Source: Streptomyces sp. NBC_00490 (GTDB taxonomy: Bacteria > Actinomycetota > Actinomycetes > Streptomycetales > Streptomycetaceae). Taken from it: 64,000 nucleotides of DNA. Position 1 is the stretch's first letter; every line of letters begins with the position of its first letter. Below are positions 4,530 through 16,227 of this stretch, piece after piece. Under the pieces are notes generated by a model. It saw nothing but the letters and a program-made list of their open reading frames with translations. It was not told where the DNA came from and made no database searches. A program made the position numbers and the translations under genes. Location of the stretch: positions 10,230,001 through 10,294,000 of the forward strand of contig NZ_CP107869.1 in assembly GCF_036013645.1 (NCBI RefSeq), read 5' to 3'.

Positions 4530-5690
4530 GGATGCCATGATCTGCAGTGCGCTGCCGGCGGTGTCCTCCTGGAGAGGGTGTGCCCACGCGGCCTTGTCGC
4601 CGACGTCCAGCACGCGGGCCCGGCGGGGGTCCTGGGTAGTGACGCCGACGGGCAGGCGTCCGTATGGCAGTGAGCCTGGACGCAGCCGACGGCGAACGTG
4701 ACGGCGTGGGCCGCGGAAGCGTAGTCGGCGCCCTGGATCAGGCGTTTGCCGAGGTCCGTCTCAGTGACGATCTCGCCGCTGGCACCGATCCCGCTCCGGT
4801 CCCACAGGCCCGCGCCGACCAAGGCGTTGTGCACGGTCATCAAACCTTCCGTGATCGGTATGCCGACGTGGCCGGCGAACTCGAGCGGTGTGGTGCCCGT
4901 GCCGTCCTCCGCGCCGTCGGCGAAGCTGCAGTCGGGTGCGGGCCCTCCTCGATCATCGCCGTGCACACGGCGAGGTGCTGGCGCCGTGAACCGGGGGACA
5001 GCTTGAAACCGGCCGCCACGGCGCCGGACAGCTCCCGCATGCGTGCGATGAAACGGACCAGTTCACGAGGCGTGGAAAACGCCCGGTGGCAGGGCGGTGA
5101 GACCACCGTCCGTCCCTCGGGGACGTCTCGCACCCGGGCGATCTCCACGTTCACCGTGGCCCCGGCAGCACACCCCCGATACCGGGCTTGGCGCGCCCTG
5201 CGACAACTTCTCAGACGCTCGCCTGACGCTCTCGCCCGGCGCCTTTTCGGTCGAACTACCCGGCATCGAAGTCCCCGTCCCTGGTCCGGCAGCCGACGCA
5301 GCCGGTACCGATCTCCCGGACCAGGTCACCACCCGGACGCAGGTGGTACTCCGCCAATCCGCCCTCGCCGGTGTCGGGCGCGAAACCGCCTGCCGCTGAT
5401 CCGTACATGTGGCGGGTGCTCGGCCACCGGGCGGGGCCCCATTGAGGGGACCAGGTACTCGTAACCTGCCTGGTAGACGTCACGCTCGGTCACGAACGGC
5501 TCCTCCGCGGCGGTGCCCTTGGCCGGCTCGTAGACGATGCTGCGGATATCCCGGTCGAAGGGCCGTCCGTCGAAGTTCCCCTCGGTGGAGTACTGCCGCA
5601 TCACGCCGATGAACCCGGAGGCACCGCTGCCATCCACCACCAGGACGGCGTCCACGACCACCGCGACGATCCAGTTCTCAGCACGGTCCG
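4530..5690 (-). pseudogene. Decayed FMN-binding glutamate synthase family gene
   Basis: Reading leftwards, pieces of one gene appear in shifting frames: GRPFDRDIRSIVYEPAKG (about 5550), NTGEGGL-like GFAPDTGEGGLAEYH (about 5350), KLSQGA-like ending (about 5200), ISPPxHxAFSTPREL-like VVSPPCHRAFSTPRELVRF (about 5080), LEFAGHVGIPITEGLMTVHNA (about 4850), and the GASGEIVT...QGADY...FAVGCVQAHCHTDACP block (about 4700) ending near ALQIMASM. These are in the order of the glutamate-synthase central/FMN domain proteins of about 500 residues. At least three frameshifts and an internal loss are present, so no product is expected. Confidence 0.8.
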
Positions 5691-5975
5691 CGAGTGGCCC
5701 GCCGGGCGCGTTTCATGCGGACCAGGGCCGGGCCGGAAAACACCCGCATGTTATACGGCAAGGTGGGTAACGCTGATTTTCTGAAGGTGAGTAAAAAGTG
5801 AATCGACGCGACTGTGTTGATTCTTGTACTTCTTGTCGCCTGATATTTACTCATACTCGAAATCAGAAATTGTGTGGGACGGGAAACGGTGGGCACTCGC
5901 CCTGTCGAGGGCCGCCCACCGAAATTTCGGACGGGAGGCTTCCTCGGTATTCACGTGCTACAAGGGGAGGTTTGT

Positions 5976-6326
5976 ATGACGGACAACATGTGGGGTTACC
6001 CGGCCGAGTCGGGCCACCAGACGGGGACGGACCTGACCGGATTCAAGGTCGAGGCGAGTGACGGCTCGATCGGCAAGGTCGACAAGCACTCGGAGGACGT
6101 CGGGGCCGCGTACATCGTCGTCGACACCGGAGTGTGGATCTTCGGCAAGACGGTTCTTCTCCCTGCCGGTGTCATCTCGTCCATCGACGTCGCGGGGCAG
6201 ACGGTCCATGTAGGCCGGACCAAGGACGAGATCAAGAACTCCCCCGAGTTCGACAAGGACAAGCACGTCGGCGACCCCGGCTACCACGAGCAGGTCGGCG
6301 GATATTACGGAGACCACCGAGCCTGA
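5976..6326 (+). CDS. PRC-barrel domain protein
   Basis: 116 residues, intact. Residues about 14-75 form a PRC-barrel-like beta domain (LTGFKVEASDGSIGKVD, AAYIVVDTGVWIFGKTVLL, PAGVISSIDV). A charged tail (TKDEIKNSPEFDKDKH) and a Tyr/Gly-rich end follow, the standard layout of the short PRC-barrel proteins found in many Streptomyces, often linked to stress or storage conditions. The ATG at 5976 is set by a GGGGAGG site five bases upstream. The 200 bp upstream are clearly more AT-rich than the surroundings and probably hold the promoter. A GC-rich hairpin follows the stop codon. The molecular role of these proteins is not established. Confidence 0.85.
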   Translation: MTDNMWGYPAESGHQTGTDLTGFKVEASDGSIGKVDKHSEDVGAAYIVVDTGVWIFGKTVLLPAGVISSIDVAGQTVHVGRTKDEIKNSPEFDKDKHVGDPGYHEQVGGYYGDHRA

Positions 6327-6347
6327 CCGTCACTCCGTGGCACACAG

Positions 6348-6381
6348 GGGCGGGCACCGGCGTTCTGTCGGCGTCCGCCCT
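6348..6381 (+). terminator. Probable intrinsic-type terminator after PRC-barrel gene
   Basis: An imperfect GC-rich stem (GGGCGG...CCGCCC with further pairing inside) begins 22 bp after the stop codon, with weaker pairing extending outside. No strong T-run, as is common in high-GC actinobacteria. Confidence 0.45.
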
Positions 6382-6452
6382 TCGCTGTGCCCGGTCTTCC
6401 CCCGGCACTGGATCTGCTTGATCCGGAGGAAGCGAGAAGACCGCCGACGGCG

Positions 6453-6703
6453 ATGAAGGACTACTCGGACGAGTTCAAGGCCGATGCCGTGGCCCTGTAC
6501 GAGTCCATACCCGGGGCGACCTACAAGAGCATCACCGCTGACCTGGGCATCAACCGGGCGACCTTGCGTAGGTGGTGCTGCGGGACCGCGAACGCCGTGG
6601 CGTCAGTGCCGCGGCTGCGAAGCCGGCCGCCCGGCCTCGGGAGGCGACACCGTCCGGTGATCCGGTTGAGGGTGAGAACCGCGTCATCAGCCGCAAACGG
6701 CGG
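6453..6703 (+). pseudogene. IS3-family transposase OrfA fragment
   Basis: MKDYSDEFKADAVALYES and DLGINRATLRRW are the helix-turn-helix start of an IS3 OrfA. A one-base loss after the RRW codons (about 6575) moves the rest (VLRDRERRGVSAAAAKP) to another frame, ending at a TGA near 6703. No OrfB and no inverted repeats were seen. Dead remnant of an insertion. Confidence 0.75.
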
Positions 6704-6779
6704 TGATCAGTCCTTGGATGGTGATCTTCCTGGGCTGGGCGGCTCGTACACTGCTGACGGAAAGGTCAGTAGCAGGTAC

Positions 6780-7112
6780 GTTTACACCCAGTCGACCGAG
6801 GGATCCTCGTACGGCATCGAGTGGAACACGCATCAGAGCGGGATGAGCCGTCCAGGTCCGACCACTCACATCCCCGGTCTCTACCTCGCCGGGGCGAGCT
6901 GCCGGCCCGGACCCGCGACCGAGGGCGTGCTGCTGTCCGGCATCGCGACGGCGGGCCAGATCCTGGGCCGCGACCTGCTCTCGGAGTTCCGGGCGGGCAG
7001 ACCGCTGGTGCCCGCGGGTGCGATCCCCGCAGTTCCTGCGGGGTGGGCCCCACTCGAGGCGTCGAAGCCGCGCCCGCCGCGTGAGACCGAGGTCGTCGGC
7101 ACTGCCGACTGA
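6780..7112 (+). pseudogene. C-terminal fragment of a phytoene-desaturase-like FAD oxidoreductase
   Basis: About 110 residues with the closing signature of the CrtI/NAD(P)-binding oxidoreductase family: EGSSYGIEW, THIPGLYLAGASCRPGPATEG and VLLSGIATAGQIL, the segment that contacts FAD near the C-terminus. The FAD-binding GxGxxG N-terminus and about 400 residues are missing; the IS3 fragment lies directly upstream. Residual coding, not a functional gene. Confidence 0.7.
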
Positions 7113-9793: not shown

Positions 9794-10186
9794 CTAGGGC
9801 CGGTTGGCGGCCTGCTTCTGCTCCCACCAGGCAGGCGGGCGGGAGGTGGCGGCGGGCTGGGGTGCCGGGGGAGCGGTGTACGGGCGGGCGGCGATCGGGC
9901 TGGCCGTTGTTCCACTCTGCGGGGGCCCACCGGTCATGCCTGCCTGAGTTTTCTGTGGCCCCCGCGATGGCGATCGTGGGGCGCCGACCAGCCCTGCCCG
10001 CGACTTCGCGGAACTCCGAGTAGTCGCGAACGGGCCAGGAGCGGGGTGAGGTCTGACCCGTTCGTCGGGCCGGATGAGTCGGGCGGTCTCCGCCTCCCCT
10101 CGCCTCGATGGGTTGGTTCCGCGTCGAGATGGAAGGAGGCACGCGGGCGCGTCAAGGTCAAACGAATTCGGTTCGTATGCGAACAA
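9794..10186 (-). other. Proline-rich open frame, doubtful
   Basis: An open frame ends in a Pro/Ala-rich tail closing with RPPAWWEQKQAANRP, which looks like a natural C-terminus. The upstream half is low-complexity and Arg-rich, as expected of non-coding frames in such DNA. It could be the end of a lost mobile-element gene. Confidence 0.2.
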
Positions 10187-10238
10187 GGAAGCCGCCTGTC
10201 AGACTCATGGATAACGACGTACGTGGAGGCAGCATCTG

Positions 10239-10550
10239 ATGAGTGACCCTGAGGGCGTGCCCCTGGCCGACTACATCCGCGTCCTGCGCGATCAGTTGGA
10301 GACGGCACAGCAGGAAGGGACGGGCCGCGGTGTCACGTTCGGCGTCGGGTCTGTGGAGCTGGAGTTCGAGGTCACGATGACGCGGGAGGCAGGCGGGCGC
10401 GGCGGGTTGAAGCTGTGGGTGGTTGAGGCAGGCGCCGACGGCAAGCGCAGCGGCGGCCGGACACAGCGTGTGCGGATGACCCTTACGCCCACCGACGAGG
10501 CCGGCCGGCCGCTGTCGGTCACTGATCGGCTGCCCGAGCTCCCGCGCTGA
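10239..10550 (+). CDS. Trypco2-domain protein
   Basis: 103 residues. An N-terminal helix (LADYIRVLRDQLETAQQEG) is followed by beta strands (VTFGVGSVELEFEVTMTREA, GLKLWVVEAG, RVRMTLTP). This is the layout of the trypsin-co-occurring domain 2, a small domain found next to trypsin-like protease/NTPase genes in predicted NTP-dependent conflict systems. The ATG follows AGGCAGCATCTG. The gene ends five bases before the GTG of the trypsin-NTPase gene, so the two form an operon. Its precise role, perhaps as a regulatory or sensor partner of the protease, is not established. Confidence 0.82.
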   Translation: MSDPEGVPLADYIRVLRDQLETAQQEGTGRGVTFGVGSVELEFEVTMTREAGGRGGLKLWVVEAGADGKRSGGRTQRVRMTLTPTDEAGRPLSVTDRLPELPR

Positions 10551-10555
10551 GGCCT

Positions 10556-13500
10556 GTGGTGGGGGACTCGCTTGCCGGGCGGTGCGCCGAGGTCCTGGTC
10601 GAGCAGGACGGCGGCACCGGGTACGGCTCGGGGCTGCGGCTGTCGACGTCCTTGGTGGTGACGGCCGGGCATGTGGTCGAGGGCGGTGGTTCGGTCAGGG
10701 TGCGGCTGTCCGGTGGCGGTCCCGAGGAGATTGTCGTCACCGGACGGACGGTGTGGCGAGGTGCCCGGCTGGACGTCGCGCTTGTCGAACTCGCTCGGGA
10801 CGTCCGCCTCGACGAGGTCGCTCCGATGGCTATCGGAGTTGTACCGGACGGGGCTGACGGACGGCTTGGGTTCACCGCGATCGGCTTTCCGCGCCATCGG
10901 AGCTGGACGGACACGGGCACGGCGACCTGGCGCGACAGCGACCAGATCGACGGGGTGATCCCGCTCGGGTCGAGTGTGAAGCGGGGCCGCCTGCTGCTGC
11001 ATCGGGCGGATGGCCGCCGCCTGGAAGCGCGCGACTGGAGCGGTTTCTCGGGCGCGGGCGTCATCTGTGAGGGGTCGGCTGTCGGCGTCGTCGTGGAGTC
11101 GGCCCACTCGGGCGGGCTGGAGGCCGTGCGGCTGGCTGCTGTGATCGGCGCGTACGAGCCGCGCGCGGAAGGCGAGCGGGAGCCGGAGCCGAGTGCCACC
11201 GCGGCACGTGAGCTGCTGGCCTCGCACGGCGTCGTTCCGCAACCCCTGCGCGGGCAGGAGCGGCGCCGCCCGGCCTACGAGGCGATGTTGCGCCAGTACG
11301 CAGCCCGGTGCGCCGAACTGACCGGCCGCGACCGGGAGCTCGCTGGCCTCCTCGCGTTCGCGACCGGGCCGGACCCCTATCTGCTGCTCGTCGCGGGCCC
11401 CTGGGCCGGAAAGACCTCGCTGGTGACCCGTTTCGCGACAGGGTCCCACCCCGGGCTGGACGTGGTGTCGTTCGTCATCTCCCGGCGCGATGGGCAGATG
11501 CGCGTCCAGCAGTTCCATCGGGCCATGTGTGACCAACTCGCCGCCCTGCTGGGCGAGTTCCCGCCCGCCGAACCGGACGCTACCGTCTTTCTCAGCCTCT
11601 GGGAGCGCGCGATGCGGATTCCCGGACGTTCCCTGCTGCTGCTCGTCGACGGCCTGGACGAGAACGACTACCGCGAGCTGGCCGAGCCCAGTATCGCCGC
11701 GCAGCTCCCGACCGCTCTCGGTCCGGCGGCACACGTCCTGGTGACGAGCCGCCATTTCGACGTGCCGCTCGACGTGGACGGCAGCCACCCGCTGCGCACC
11801 TGCCGCCGCCAGGTGCTGACACCGTTCCCCGCGGCGACGAGCCTGCTCCTGCGCGCCCGCCAAGAGCTGGATCAGGTACTCGCCGAACCCGTCCCGCGTA
11901 CCGTCCTGACCACGATGGCGGTTGCCGGCGGCGCGCTGAGCAGCAGGGACATTGCCTCGATCGTCAACGACTCCGCGCTGGCGATCCGCCGGACCCTGGA
12001 ACGGGGGCTTTCCCGGGTCGTGGAGCCGCGCCCCGGTACGCCGACCCGGTACACCCTCGCCCATGACACCCTGGCCGTCGCCGTCCAGGAGGACCTGGAA
12101 CCCGAGGAGTTCACCCGCACCCGCACCGCTATCGACGGCTGGGCCCTCGGCTATGCCGCGGCCGGCTGGCCCGACGACACTCCGGACTACCTGACCGAGG
12201 CGTACCCGACGCTCCTGCTCACCGAAGGCGCAGGCCGGACGCTGGCAGCCCTGGCCTCCTCCGCGCGCCGCGCCCTGCTGCGGCGCCGGACCGACGGCGA
12301 CCTGGCCGCGCTGTCCGAACTGTCGAACGCGGCAAGGCTCCTTGAGGCAGCCCCCGACTGTGACCTCACCCTGCTGACGCGAGTGTCGCTGCTCCGCAAG
12401 CGCATCGAGGACGACAACGTCACCATGCCCTCCACGTATCCGCTGTTGCTGGTACGCCTTGGCCGAGCCGAGGAGGGCATCCAGGTCGCCCGCGCCCTGC
12501 AGAACAACTACGTGCAGGCCGACGCGCTGCTGGCGGTCGGCGAGCACCTGCTGGACAGCCAGCGGACCGCGGCGCGGAACCTCATCCACGAAGCCGTGGC
12601 CGTACCAGGCAGGTTGCCCCTGGAGCAGATGGCACATACGGTGCGCGCAGCCCTCGCGCTCGCGCGGCACGGAGAACCAGGTGCAGCCGACATTGCTCGC
12701 CGAGCCGTCACCGAGAGCGGCGACGAGCGAGGCTGGTCCCTCACCACCGTCGCCGACGCACTGGCCGAGCTCGATGCCGCGCTGGCACGGACCCTCATCG
12801 AGGAGGCCATCGAAGGCGCCGATACGGAGGACCGCCCCGACTTCTGCGGCCTCCTCGCGCCGGCGTTCGCTGTTCTCGGCGATCTTGACCGCCTCCTCCA
12901 GCACCTCGCCGACCTGGACCTGGACGGCAGGAAACGAGCCCTCCTCACCGCCTGCAGCGAGCACGTCGCCAAGGGAGGGCGCCGAAATGTTCCCGAGCCA
13001 CTTCTCACGGCCCTTAACGATGAGTTCGCCGATTCCGAGCTCGTGGAATCGGCCGCCTACCAGGACGGGGACCGGGCCCGCCATCTGCTCGCCCTGCCCG
13101 CCTCGGACTCTCCCGATCTCGATCTCGTGGAGCTCGCCTACACCGCCCTCGCCGCCCACGGTCTCGATCCGCGACAGCCCGGGGCCACGGACGAGCTGCT
13201 CGCCGACGCTGCGGAGTCTGCCCGGGCCAACGACCACCTCTCATTGGCGCTCTCCCTGGCGCAGGACATCGCCAACCCTGGCATCCGTGCGGACCACCTC
13301 ACGGAGATTGCCCTGGCGCTGCTCGACTCCGACACACCCCAGGACGCCGCTCCCGTCGTGCGCGAGGCGGAGGCGGCCCTCGATGAGACCAGGAACACGC
13401 CGCCTCCCACCGTCCTTGCGGCCTTCGCCCGGGCCGCCGGCACCGCCGGACGAACGGACCTGGCCACATCGGCCCTGGCACTGGCCTTGCAAACGGTGCT

Positions 13501-14608
13501 GCAGGCAGGCGAGGACACCCGTGCCACGTGGGAGGCGCGGGCTGTGGCAAGCGCAGCCACGTGGCTAGGCCACCTCGACCACGCCCTGAAGATCGCGGCC
13601 AGGTTCGAGGCAGACCAGATCGACCGCATCGACATCCTCCTGGACGCCGCGAGAGCCCTCGAAGCCCACGGCGACCACCGCTCAGCCGATCTCGACCTGC
13701 TCATCGCCCAGGTGACCGAAGGCATCGAGAAGTCGACGGACCCGAGCGTGTCCGGCTGGCGCACCCGCGTCACTCACGAGCTCATCGACCTCCACCTGCG
13801 AGCCGAGCACGCCGACGCGGCCCTCAATCTGGCACGCCGGCTTGACGAGACAGATCTCTACGGCCGCGCACTCGAGTTCCGCGCGCACCTACTGTCGGAC
13901 GACATCCCCTCGGCGATCTCCCTGATCCGCGAAACGGCCCTGACCATGCCAGCGAGTTCCCCGCAGGACATCGCCCGCCGGCAGGAACAGGCAGCAGCGA
14001 TGATCGTCGAGATGTGCGACGCCGGCCACCAGCCCCTGTGCCGCGACGTCACGGCTCAACTCGCCGCAACCGCAGACCCAGACGTGACGCTGGACAGCGG
14101 CCTGTGGGCCCGCCCCTGGCTCACCGCAGCCTGCCAGGCCACCGGCCTCACCGAGGACTTCACCCGCCTTCTGGACACGCTGCGGCACACCGTCCTGGTC
14201 ACGGGCACCCACTATGCGACGAACACCGTGCCGCTGGAAGCAGTCGTCCGCCTGCGCCTGTGGGATCGCTACCACGCCGAAGCCCTTCGGCTGACCGGGG
14301 TTCTGGCCGAGGGCGTCCTCACCGAGCTGGTCAAAGCGATGCTCGACGCAGGCTTCCTGACCGAGGCCATCCCCCTTATCGACGACCTCCAGGACGACCA
14401 CGCCGACTGCCTGGCCCTTGCCGCGGCCGTTGCCTCCCCGCCGCCCGTCGACCTGGTCAAGCGCTCCCTGGCCCACGGCTTCGCCGAGGACGTCATTGCC
14501 CCACTGGCCGCCCTGGAACCGGCGTGCCTGCAAGAGATCGCAGCCCAGCTCGGGGTGATCCAGCCGCCCGCCGAACAGGTGACGCTTCGAGCCCCCAGGA
14601 ACAGCTGA
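10556..14608 (+). CDS. Trypsin-like protease / STAND NTPase / helical-repeat protein
   Basis: 1350 residues in one frame. Residues about 5-205 form a trypsin-fold serine protease with a complete triad: His39 in VVTAGHVV, Asp73 in RLDVALVE and Ser165 in WSGFSGAG. Residues about 255-500 form a STAND/NACHT-type ATPase with Walker A GPWAGKTS (281-288) and Walker B LLLLVDGLDE (360-369). From about 520 to the end is a long all-helical region with repeated Ala/Leu-rich helix pairs (for instance EGIQVARALQNNYVQADALL, ARTLIEEAIEGAD), a TPR-like superhelix that could sense a ligand or partner. GTG at 10556 (or 10559) starts it, five bases after the trypco2 stop. The architecture fits a conflict system where NTPase switching controls proteolysis; the trigger and target are unknown. 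Confidence 0.88.
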   Translation: MVGDSLAGRCAEVLVEQDGGTGYGSGLRLSTSLVVTAGHVVEGGGSVRVRLSGGGPEEIVVTGRTVWRGARLDVALVELARDVRLDEVAPMAIGVVPDGADGRLGFTAIGFPRHRSWTDTGTATWRDSDQIDGVIPLGSSVKRGRLLLHRADGRRLEARDWSGFSGAGVICEGSAVGVVVESAHSGGLEAVRLAAVIGAYEPRAEGEREPEPSATAARELLASHGVVPQPLRGQERRRPAYEAMLRQYAARCAELTGRDRELAGLLAFATGPDPYLLLVAGPWAGKTSLVTRFATGSHPGLDVVSFVISRRDGQMRVQQFHRAMCDQLAALLGEFPPAEPDATVFLSLWERAMRIPGRSLLLLVDGLDENDYRELAEPSIAAQLPTALGPAAHVLVTSRHFDVPLDVDGSHPLRTCRRQVLTPFPAATSLLLRARQELDQVLAEPVPRTVLTTMAVAGGALSSRDIASIVNDSALAIRRTLERGLSRVVEPRPGTPTRYTLAHDTLAVAVQEDLEPEEFTRTRTAIDGWALGYAAAGWPDDTPDYLTEAYPTLLLTEGAGRTLAALASSARRALLRRRTDGDLAALSELSNAARLLEAAPDCDLTLLTRVSLLRKRIEDDNVTMPSTYPLLLVRLGRAEEGIQVARALQNNYVQADALLAVGEHLLDSQRTAARNLIHEAVAVPGRLPLEQMAHTVRAALALARHGEPGAADIARRAVTESGDERGWSLTTVADALAELDAALARTLIEEAIEGADTEDRPDFCGLLAPAFAVLGDLDRLLQHLADLDLDGRKRALLTACSEHVAKGGRRNVPEPLLTALNDEFADSELVESAAYQDGDRARHLLALPASDSPDLDLVELAYTALAAHGLDPRQPGATDELLADAAESARANDHLSLALSLAQDIANPGIRADHLTEIALALLDSDTPQDAAPVVREAEAALDETRNTPPPTVLAAFARAAGTAGRTDLATSALALALQTVLQAGEDTRATWEARAVASAATWLGHLDHALKIAARFEADQIDRIDILLDAARALEAHGDHRSADLDLLIAQVTEGIEKSTDPSVSGWRTRVTHELIDLHLRAEHADAALNLARRLDETDLYGRALEFRAHLLSDDIPSAISLIRETALTMPASSPQDIARRQEQAAAMIVEMCDAGHQPLCRDVTAQLAATADPDVTLDSGLWARPWLTAACQATGLTEDFTRLLDTLRHTVLVTGTHYATNTVPLEAVVRLRLWDRYHAEALRLTGVLAEGVLTELVKAMLDAGFLTEAIPLIDDLQDDHADCLALAAAVASPPPVDLVKRSLAHGFAEDVIAPLAALEPACLQEIAAQLGVIQPPAEQVTLRAPRNS

Positions 14609-15194: not shown

Positions 15195-15524
15195 TCAGAT
15201 CTGGGCGTGCTCGGTTTCCGTGTGCTCGCAGGTCCTGGTGGGCGACCCTGTGCCGAAGTCCGGGCCGGTGAAGTCGGTCCAGGTGTTGAGGCAGGGTGCT
15301 TCGCCGCCCGAGCCGCCGTAGTCGCCGCAACCGCAGACGTGCGGGGTCGGCGGGGGGTCCAGTTCGGCTAGGCAAGGGCGGCCGAACCAGTCGCGTTCCT
15401 CGGCGGACAGGTCCGCGCCCGAAGCGCGTACAAGTTCCGCGGCCTTGCGGCGGGCTTCCATGAGCAGGGCCCCCACCTCGGCCAGGGTCCGGTTCTGGGC
15501 TTCTGATCTGCCGTTCCAGTTCAC
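15195..15524 (-). CDS. Small Cys-rich protein, DUF6422-like (paralogue 2)
   Basis: 109 residues from a GTG at 15524. It has the same plan as its downstream paralogue: an amphipathic helix (LAEVGALLMEARRKAAELVR), an acidic ERDWFGRPCLAELD link, then PPPTPHVCGCGDYGGSGGEA and the ending TGPDFGTGSPTRTCEHTETE. Conserved Cys-x-Cys and a late Cys-x-His could bind a metal. The two genes look like a tandem duplication read as one unit. The ribosome site for this GTG is weak, so the start is less sure than that of the second copy. No function is known to me. Confidence 0.62.
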   Translation of the reverse strand: MNWNGRSEAQNRTLAEVGALLMEARRKAAELVRASGADLSAEERDWFGRPCLAELDPPPTPHVCGCGDYGGSGGEAPCLNTWTDFTGPDFGTGSPTRTCEHTETEHAQI

Positions 15525-15714
15525 GGCTGCCGTCCTACCAAGGATCACGGACCAATCCCTCACGGCGCGCCCGCGCGGCGCCTGCGGCCCATCCGTAAGG
15601 AGCCAAGAGAACCAACAGCAAGCGGGCCGTGCCCTACTGGCGGACGAACCTGATAATGCGGCAGCTCGCGCGACGCCCGTCCGAGCGCACGACCTCGTGC
15701 TGAGACAACAGGCG

Positions 15715-15965
15715 TGAGGGGGCGGTGGGCAGGCTGCGCAGTGGTGGCTTCGGTCGCTGCGCAACGGCTGGCCGGTTGCGCAGCCTTTCGGTCGCGGTGA
15801 TTGCGCAGGCCGCTGGCCTGCATGGTCTGGCCTGTGGGCGGGGTGGTCAGTCACCCCGCCGGTGTGTCCAGCTGACCTGCTCCGCGGGGTGGTGACGGGC
15901 CGCCAGATAGGCGCGGAGGGCCCGTCGCGGAGGATGTCGGTGAGGGAGGCGACCAGGATGGGTAT
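15715..15965. repeat. Diverged direct repeat, copy A
   Basis: This copy shares GGTGGGCAGGCTGCGCAG at its left end, GCGGGGTGGTGACGG in the middle and GAGGGAGGCGACCAGGATGG at its right with 17328-17605. Four TGCGCA palindromes lie at 15735, 15758, 15777 and 15802. Read leftwards, the right end encodes HAIPILVASLTDILRD, matched in copy B. No intact gene. The rest of 15525-16227 holds nothing recognisable. Confidence 0.7.
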
Positions 15966-16227
15966 GGCATGCCGACTGCCAGACCCGTCGCAAGCACTCG
16001 ACCATCCCGTCGGAGCGTGCGCCGGCCGACCCTTACACCCGGCTACGGCACGGCTGAAGTCCGACGCTGCAATTCCCATCTGGCTGAAGGCCGAGGTTGC
16101 CGCGTCGAGCAAGTCCTGGTGGGAAAGGTGCTGTTGCACGAGCACGAGTGATCAAGAGCGGTGCGCTGTCGGCGCCGTCTCCTACCCTGCGGTTACGTTC
16201 AGCAGTTCAGATGGGGAGGGGACGACG

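Follow-up and report, generated by a model that had tools for sequence, protein, structure and literature searches.

The published context of Trypco2 (Trypsin-co-occurring domain 2) is VMAP: in the available part of Kaur et al. 2020 (PMC7159879), Trypco2-trypsin pairs are described within VMAP-MoxR-vWA ternary systems, whose named plasmid examples (Azospirillum, Methylosinus) are annotated as trypco2, a serine protease, a MoxR ATPase and a further large gene. Proteases with a dedicated partner are also described in the accessible portion of PMC12799240, as nuclease-protease pairs in Avs1, Hachiman, Lamassu and DRT and as caspase-nuclease (canu) loci. The PADLOC model STAND_TPR denotes an ATPase fused to an Xre-type helix-turn-helix (HTH) and tetratricopeptide repeats (TPR), associated with a cas1-less I-E system in Streptomyces. 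Here, we describe a two-gene cassette in a 64,000-nt stretch of Streptomyces sp. NBC_00490 (contig NZ_CP107869.1, positions 10,230,001–10,294,000; hereafter the window), in which trypco2 precedes, by five bases, a gene whose single 1350-residue product joins a predicted protease, a STAND nucleoside triphosphatase (NTPase) and a helical-repeat tail. We put at about 0.5 the probability that the cassette is a self-contained, two-gene NLR-like conflict system, probably directed against phages. Its component parts are already known; what is unusual is that the pair is autonomous, that trypsin-NTPase partners prevail among the sampled Trypco2 loci of the genus, and that caspase neighbours occur.

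Anatomy and boundaries of the cassette

The cassette comprises the following features, in window coordinates:

10075–10238, plus strand: probable promoter and conserved upstream region, with the ribosome-binding GGAGG at 10225–10229
10171–10184, no strand assigned: palindrome GTTCG-TATG-CGAAC, candidate operator, 55–68 bp upstream of trypco2
10239–10550, plus strand: trypco2, 103 residues, Trypsin-co-occurring domain 2 (PF19631, 101.9 bits)
10556–14608, plus strand: protease-STAND NTPase-helical repeat gene, 1350 residues, start at GTG 10556 or GTG 10559
10601–11170, plus strand: predicted trypsin/V8-like protease domain, approximately residues 16–205, triad H39, D73 and S165
10670–10672, 10772–10774 and 11048–11050, plus strand: codons of H39, D73 and S165, respectively
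11273–12100, plus strand: STAND NTPase core and winged-helix region, approximately residues 240–515 (limits from the model)
11393–11416 and 11633–11662, plus strand: Walker A (residues 280–287) and Walker B (residues 360–369), respectively
12101–14605, plus strand: TPR/PPR-like alpha-helical superhelix, approximately residues 516–1350, proposed sensor

The first-pass annotation had described a trypco2 gene followed by an intact protease, NTPase and repeat gene, and this anatomy, the intactness and the family names were borne out by profile matches, the intact frame and invariant residues. The 1350-residue frame contains no stops and retains every catalytic residue, and the catalytic triad and key NTPase residues are invariant across 63 aligned sequences. 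With its match to the trypsin-like (Trypsin_2/S1) peptidase model and its conserved His-Asp-Ser triad, the N-terminal domain is a predicted trypsin/V8-like protease. The following region shows the P-loop, Walker B motif, winged helix and effector-NTPase-repeat plan of STAND NTPases. That annotation had staked its reading on trypsin and STAND profile matches and on aligning catalytic residues; all of these were found, except that the NACHT match (PF05729, 21.8 bits) fell below the Pfam cut-off of 26.7, and we therefore treat the protein as a remote STAND member and do not class it as NACHT.

Fold matches for the NTPase region span residues 240–624, the best being a chain of a maltose regulator. 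Foldseek also returned a STAND-TPR protein (E 2.5e-8) and Avs3 (E 3.8e-8), with low TM-scores, and Apaf-1 was among the fold matches as well. The PADLOC STAND_TPR model, matched from its position 75, covered the NTPase and first repeats at 1.8e-66. The tail is modelled as helical as far as residue 1195, with profile matches to TPR/PPR chains at profile positions ~665–1300. Trypco2 itself was matched over 78 of 78 model positions (cut-off 24.2 bits), and its AlphaFold2 model shows a helix-strand-strand-strand arrangement with a mean predicted local distance difference test score of 74.5.

The limits of the cassette were drawn from 11 orthologous loci (eight in Streptomyces and one each in Nonomuraea, Microtetraspora and Sphaerisporangium). 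In all 11, trypco2 comes first and is separated from the large gene by 5–13 nt; GTG 10559 is the apparent first codon in the records of several relatives. The point at which DNA homology with the eight Streptomyces loci sets in falls between 10075 and 10187, and homology is lost at the end of the stop codon or no more than 35 bases from it; beyond the cassette, window positions 1–25,000 share with these loci just one 89-bp stretch by blastn (L020). No third gene recurs widely, the maximum being three of the 11 loci, with common families at 28–53% identity. With these homology boundaries and no third gene that is widely shared, the cassette is a two-gene unit, which looks self-contained and autonomous.

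Upstream of trypco2, the palindrome is a possible operator for some regulator. A search with GTTCGYATRCGAAC gave a single match genome-wide. The exact GTTCG-N4-CGAAC lies 67–68 bp upstream of trypco2 in five of the 11 orthologous loci, occurs with one mismatch in L020, is absent from the other five, and was found in none of 80 other trypco2 upstream regions.

Close copies of the cassette are scarce, with none above 41% identity in the other 198 genomes of the genus (three candidates scored per genome). Copies at 66–94% identity occur in four genera, in different flanks, and the cassette group appears to be rare and sporadically distributed. A Rhodococcus plasmid typed as mobilizable carries a similar trypco2 and trypsin-STAND-TPR pair, flanked by a relaxase on one side and a transposase on the other; the large protein of this pair matched Trypsin_2 and NPHP3_N above cut-off and NACHT below, with TPR in the cut C-terminal half.

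Two further frames in the window were noted. A 235-residue frame at 2192–2899 shows weak, sub-threshold STAND/NB-ARC matches and is probably what is left of a further STAND gene. A minus-strand frame at 15195–16145, shortly after the end of the cassette, matches DUF6422 (35.4 bits, cut-off 25).

Linkage of Trypco2 to proteases

A contig scan, which admitted just those relatives fitting two peptide patterns, gave 41 loci with a related NTPase, 20 of them protease-bearing and 21 without the protease. Trypco2 lies directly upstream in 19 of the 20 protease-bearing relatives and in 0 of the 21 protease-less ones over the stretch examined (in L037, L039 and L045 the flanks or frames are short or cut), and we therefore assign it to the protease rather than to the NTPase. 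Nine of the protease-less relatives were scanned for the nature of their N-terminus: two from Nocardia carry a caspase domain above cut-off, one from Streptomyces (L038) an HTH just under threshold (22.2 bits, cut-off 23), and the remainder of the nine no recognised N-terminal effector. N-termini thus appear to be swapped on a shared NTPase chassis. The genome of the window holds a paralogue of this chassis (L146:3543-6974) with ~55 residues before the NTPase; no Trypco2 or protease was found in that 9 kb stretch.

Sequence distances point the same way. From the 80 Trypco2 loci surveyed below, 20 were set aside (seven without an adjacent protease by script and 13 with short or split genes), and 55 of the 60 retained, together with the window, carried the P-loop pattern, giving 56 pairs; the five without it were all divergent loci with a kinase. 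The correlation of Trypco2 distances with those of the protease (Spearman 0.51, or 0.48 when the NTPase is taken into account) is stronger than with those of the NTPase (0.26, or 0.18 when the protease is taken into account), and neither was reached in any of 500 permutations.

A survey of gene neighbours, as the first-pass annotation had suggested, widened this picture. Trypco2 was present in 64 of 101 genomes of the same genus; in a phylum-wide set of 246 genomes it was present in four, and three of these again belong to the genus. There were 105 Trypco2 matches, two of them in the genome of the window, and 80 of the other 103, mostly the stronger ones, were surveyed. The second copy in this genome (G000:C1:10120117-10120275, L145) is broken; it lies at a distance of 120 kb from the cassette, and the surrounding 14 kb yielded no protease. 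A gene for a trypsin-like protease is adjacent in 75 of the 80 loci, where adjacency means domains <500 bases apart, with two loci (L112 and L065) added separately and one fragmentary protease (L062) counted as adjacent. The protease gene is downstream in 61, divergent in 12, upstream in one (L112) and tail-to-tail in one (L065). In the 69 segments scanned downstream of the protease, NTPase-type domains prevail, with overlapping matches to NACHT (36), AAA_16 (38) and nSTAND5 (21); in five divergent loci (L064, L084, L096, L099 and L121) a protein kinase takes the place of the NTPase in the protease fusion, with PknG-like TPR in two of these five.

The five loci lacking an adjacent trypsin contain a VMAP gene (three), two NNH1-NACHT genes (one) and a TPR-Trypco2 fusion (one). 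The count of VMAP loci is given as at least three because 25 of the 36 families in the 69 post-protease segments were viewed, with no VMAP among them; for two of the three VMAP loci (G003 and G011), standalone protease genes resembling that of the window are located ~9 kb away. In this genus sample, the usual neighbour of Trypco2 is thus a trypsin-NTPase gene and not a VMAP gene, and the stand-alone trypco2/protease-STAND pairing looks common and little described in the literature searched, with subscription papers and preprints outside that search.

Trypco2 also adjoins a second protease fold. In all three long Trypco2-fusion loci examined (L150, L187 and L182), a caspase-family gene with its His and Cys kept lies immediately upstream. 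In L150 (6185–9011) and L187 (1453–3766), the partner is a TPR-Trypco2 fusion protein; in L182, from Embleya (4659–6846), it is a Trypco2 protein that aligns with these fusions over its N-terminal part and has no Pfam TPR. Homologues of the L150 fusion form nine protein clusters with both TPR and Trypco2, the caspase association being known from the three loci. A metallo-beta-lactamase (MBL)-fold hydrolase gene follows the fusion in L150, recalling caspase-nuclease loci. In the accessible text of PMC7159879, Trypco is paired with trypsin and kept apart from the caspase pairing, in contrast to the three loci here; that of PMC10907252 places Trypco2 in a locus whose diversity-generating retroelement target contains a caspase-like CHAT domain. 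The caspases beside Trypco2 fusions point to a partner role independent of protease fold, and Trypco2 is probably a general protease partner, either an adaptor or a cofactor. More tentatively, and short of an even chance, Trypco2 may be a general protease-docking module of bacterial NLR-like systems, licensing or positioning the unrelated trypsin-like and caspase-like folds. It would be a separate protein where protease and sensor NTPase share one chain, and be joined to the sensor-like part where the protease is separate. Were this so, it would be a bacterial counterpart of the adaptor domains coupling animal NLRs to caspases.

Proposed mechanism and alternative explanations

In the mechanism we propose, the large protein would be cytoplasmic and held in an off state until its variable C-terminal superhelix detects a signal that comes from an invader or from damage. 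The STAND core would then exchange its nucleotide, leading to oligomerisation, and this clustering would switch on the N-terminal protease. Trypco2 would serve as a dedicated, slow-evolving adaptor or cofactor, bound to the protease and responsible for its positioning or gating, and the active protease would cut a target not encoded nearby (a host factor, or Trypco2 itself), leading to growth arrest or cell death. Sensing, the nucleotide switch, clustering and protease activation are proposed because such steps are established for STAND proteins and, in the available portion of PMC12799240, for protease-fusion systems.

Evolutionary rates (dN/dS, omega) were computed on nine sequences, the window and its eight Streptomyces orthologues, with the three orthologues from other genera excluded. 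Trypco2 evolves most slowly (0.157), followed by residues 241–430 in the NTPase core (0.179), and the protease and residues 431–700 (0.336 each), and the repeat tail is the fastest-evolving part (0.30–0.42 over residues 701–900 and 0.42–0.69 over 901–1350). Such a fast tail, N-terminal swaps, sporadic distribution, the similar pair on a mobilizable plasmid and the structural likeness to STAND sensors are all consistent with the conflict system that the first-pass annotation had suggested, each of them indirectly.

Several observations weigh against the conflict-system proposal and the adaptor role within it. Omega is below 1 everywhere, and the tail may therefore be relaxed rather than positively selected. 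The Trypco2 model is of moderate quality and no relative of it was found in the PDB, leaving the adaptor docking interface hypothetical. The neighbours scanned form no obvious defence island; among them are a carboxymuconolactone decarboxylase, a GH6 enzyme, an ECF sigma factor, a LacI-type fragment and a Mutator transposase. One of the 20 protease-bearing relatives (L023) lacks Trypco2, as do the caspase-STAND relatives L031 and L036, and Trypco2 is therefore not required by every protease. Finally, nearest-neighbour agreement (33 of 56 for Trypco2/protease, 28 for Trypco2/NTPase and 37 for protease/NTPase) gives a weaker contrast than the correlations.

Trypco2 could instead be the substrate of the protease, a pro-effector cut on activation, by analogy to the pro-nuclease whose gene immediately precedes the trypsin fusion in Avs1 and protease-Hachiman systems. 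The position and order of the genes match the nuclease-protease pairs in the accessible text of PMC12799240, the orthologous loci lack a widely recurring third gene, and the protease domain weakly matched the PADLOC models Avs1b (2.5e-4, residues 19–180), HamA (0.0026) and LmuA (0.016). However, Trypco2 showed no recognisable feature of an enzyme, pore or nuclease, its invariant or near-invariant residues are mostly hydrophobic (L9, R17, L20, A23, F34, E42, V61 and L82), and it occurs next to proteases of two unrelated folds, in the caspase loci as part of a fusion with a sensor-like region; we regard this explanation as unlikely.

An inhibitor or antitoxin that silences the protease until activation would account for the rarity of an intact protease without Trypco2 (1 of 20), for the strong constraint on Trypco2, and for its persistence next to protease genes that are split or short (e.g., L062, L092, L095 and L138), a count of split proteases that draft-genome frameshifts may have inflated. 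That Trypco2 is found with serine and with cysteine proteases alike, however, speaks against inhibition at the active site, and in 12 of the 80 loci the two genes are divergent rather than in one operon; this role also seems unlikely.

Quite unlikely, in our view, is a protease of developmental or stress signalling rather than immunity. The sub-threshold HTH of L038, the description of PADLOC STAND_TPR as HTH-fused, the maltose-regulator chain as best NTPase fold match and the genome-unique upstream palindrome would fit it; the sporadic distribution, with copies at 66–94% identity in four genera and different flanks, and the fast-evolving tail would not. That the large frame is a non-functional remnant in an eroded chromosome region is highly improbable, since, although neighbouring frames are fragmentary and the second Trypco2 copy (L145) is broken, the frame has no stops, all its catalytic residues are kept and omega is <1 throughout.

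The candidate roles of Trypco2 as adaptor, inhibitor or substrate are directly testable here, because the unit consists of just two genes, is intact and has clear limits, and members of its class are found in many genomes of the genus. Were the adaptor role to hold, a single domain would account for how proteases are recruited in STAND, kinase, VMAP and caspase contexts alike.

Comparison with described systems

Like the VMAP-MoxR-vWA systems, the cassette has a Trypco2 domain adjoining a trypsin-like protease, but here the protease is fused to its own predicted STAND NTPase and repeat tail. VMAP, MoxR and vWA were found neither in the 20 distinct flanking frames scanned (window 24 to 24,114) nor in the 1350-residue protein, and we do not assign it to the ternary systems. 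As in the nuclease-protease pairs of PMC12799240 (available portion), a protease and its partner recur across different chassis; here, the partner is Trypco2 rather than an MBL nuclease, and the similarity of the protease profiles is weak. Nor is it Avs1 (AVAST type 1), as Avs1b was matched at model positions 15–165 of 1924 alone, with no match to the window NTPase, and the upstream gene is trypco2 and not an MBL nuclease.

Compared with PADLOC STAND_TPR, the cassette adds a trypco2 gene and has a protease in place of the Xre-HTH at its N-terminus, and we have not placed it in that group. To Avs3 and the Apaf-1/NLR-type STAND sensors, the sequence relation is remote, and the cassette differs from them in carrying its protease effector in the same chain and Trypco2 as a separate protein. 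In bacteria, protease-armed STAND proteins as a class are close analogues of inflammasome and apoptosome logic.
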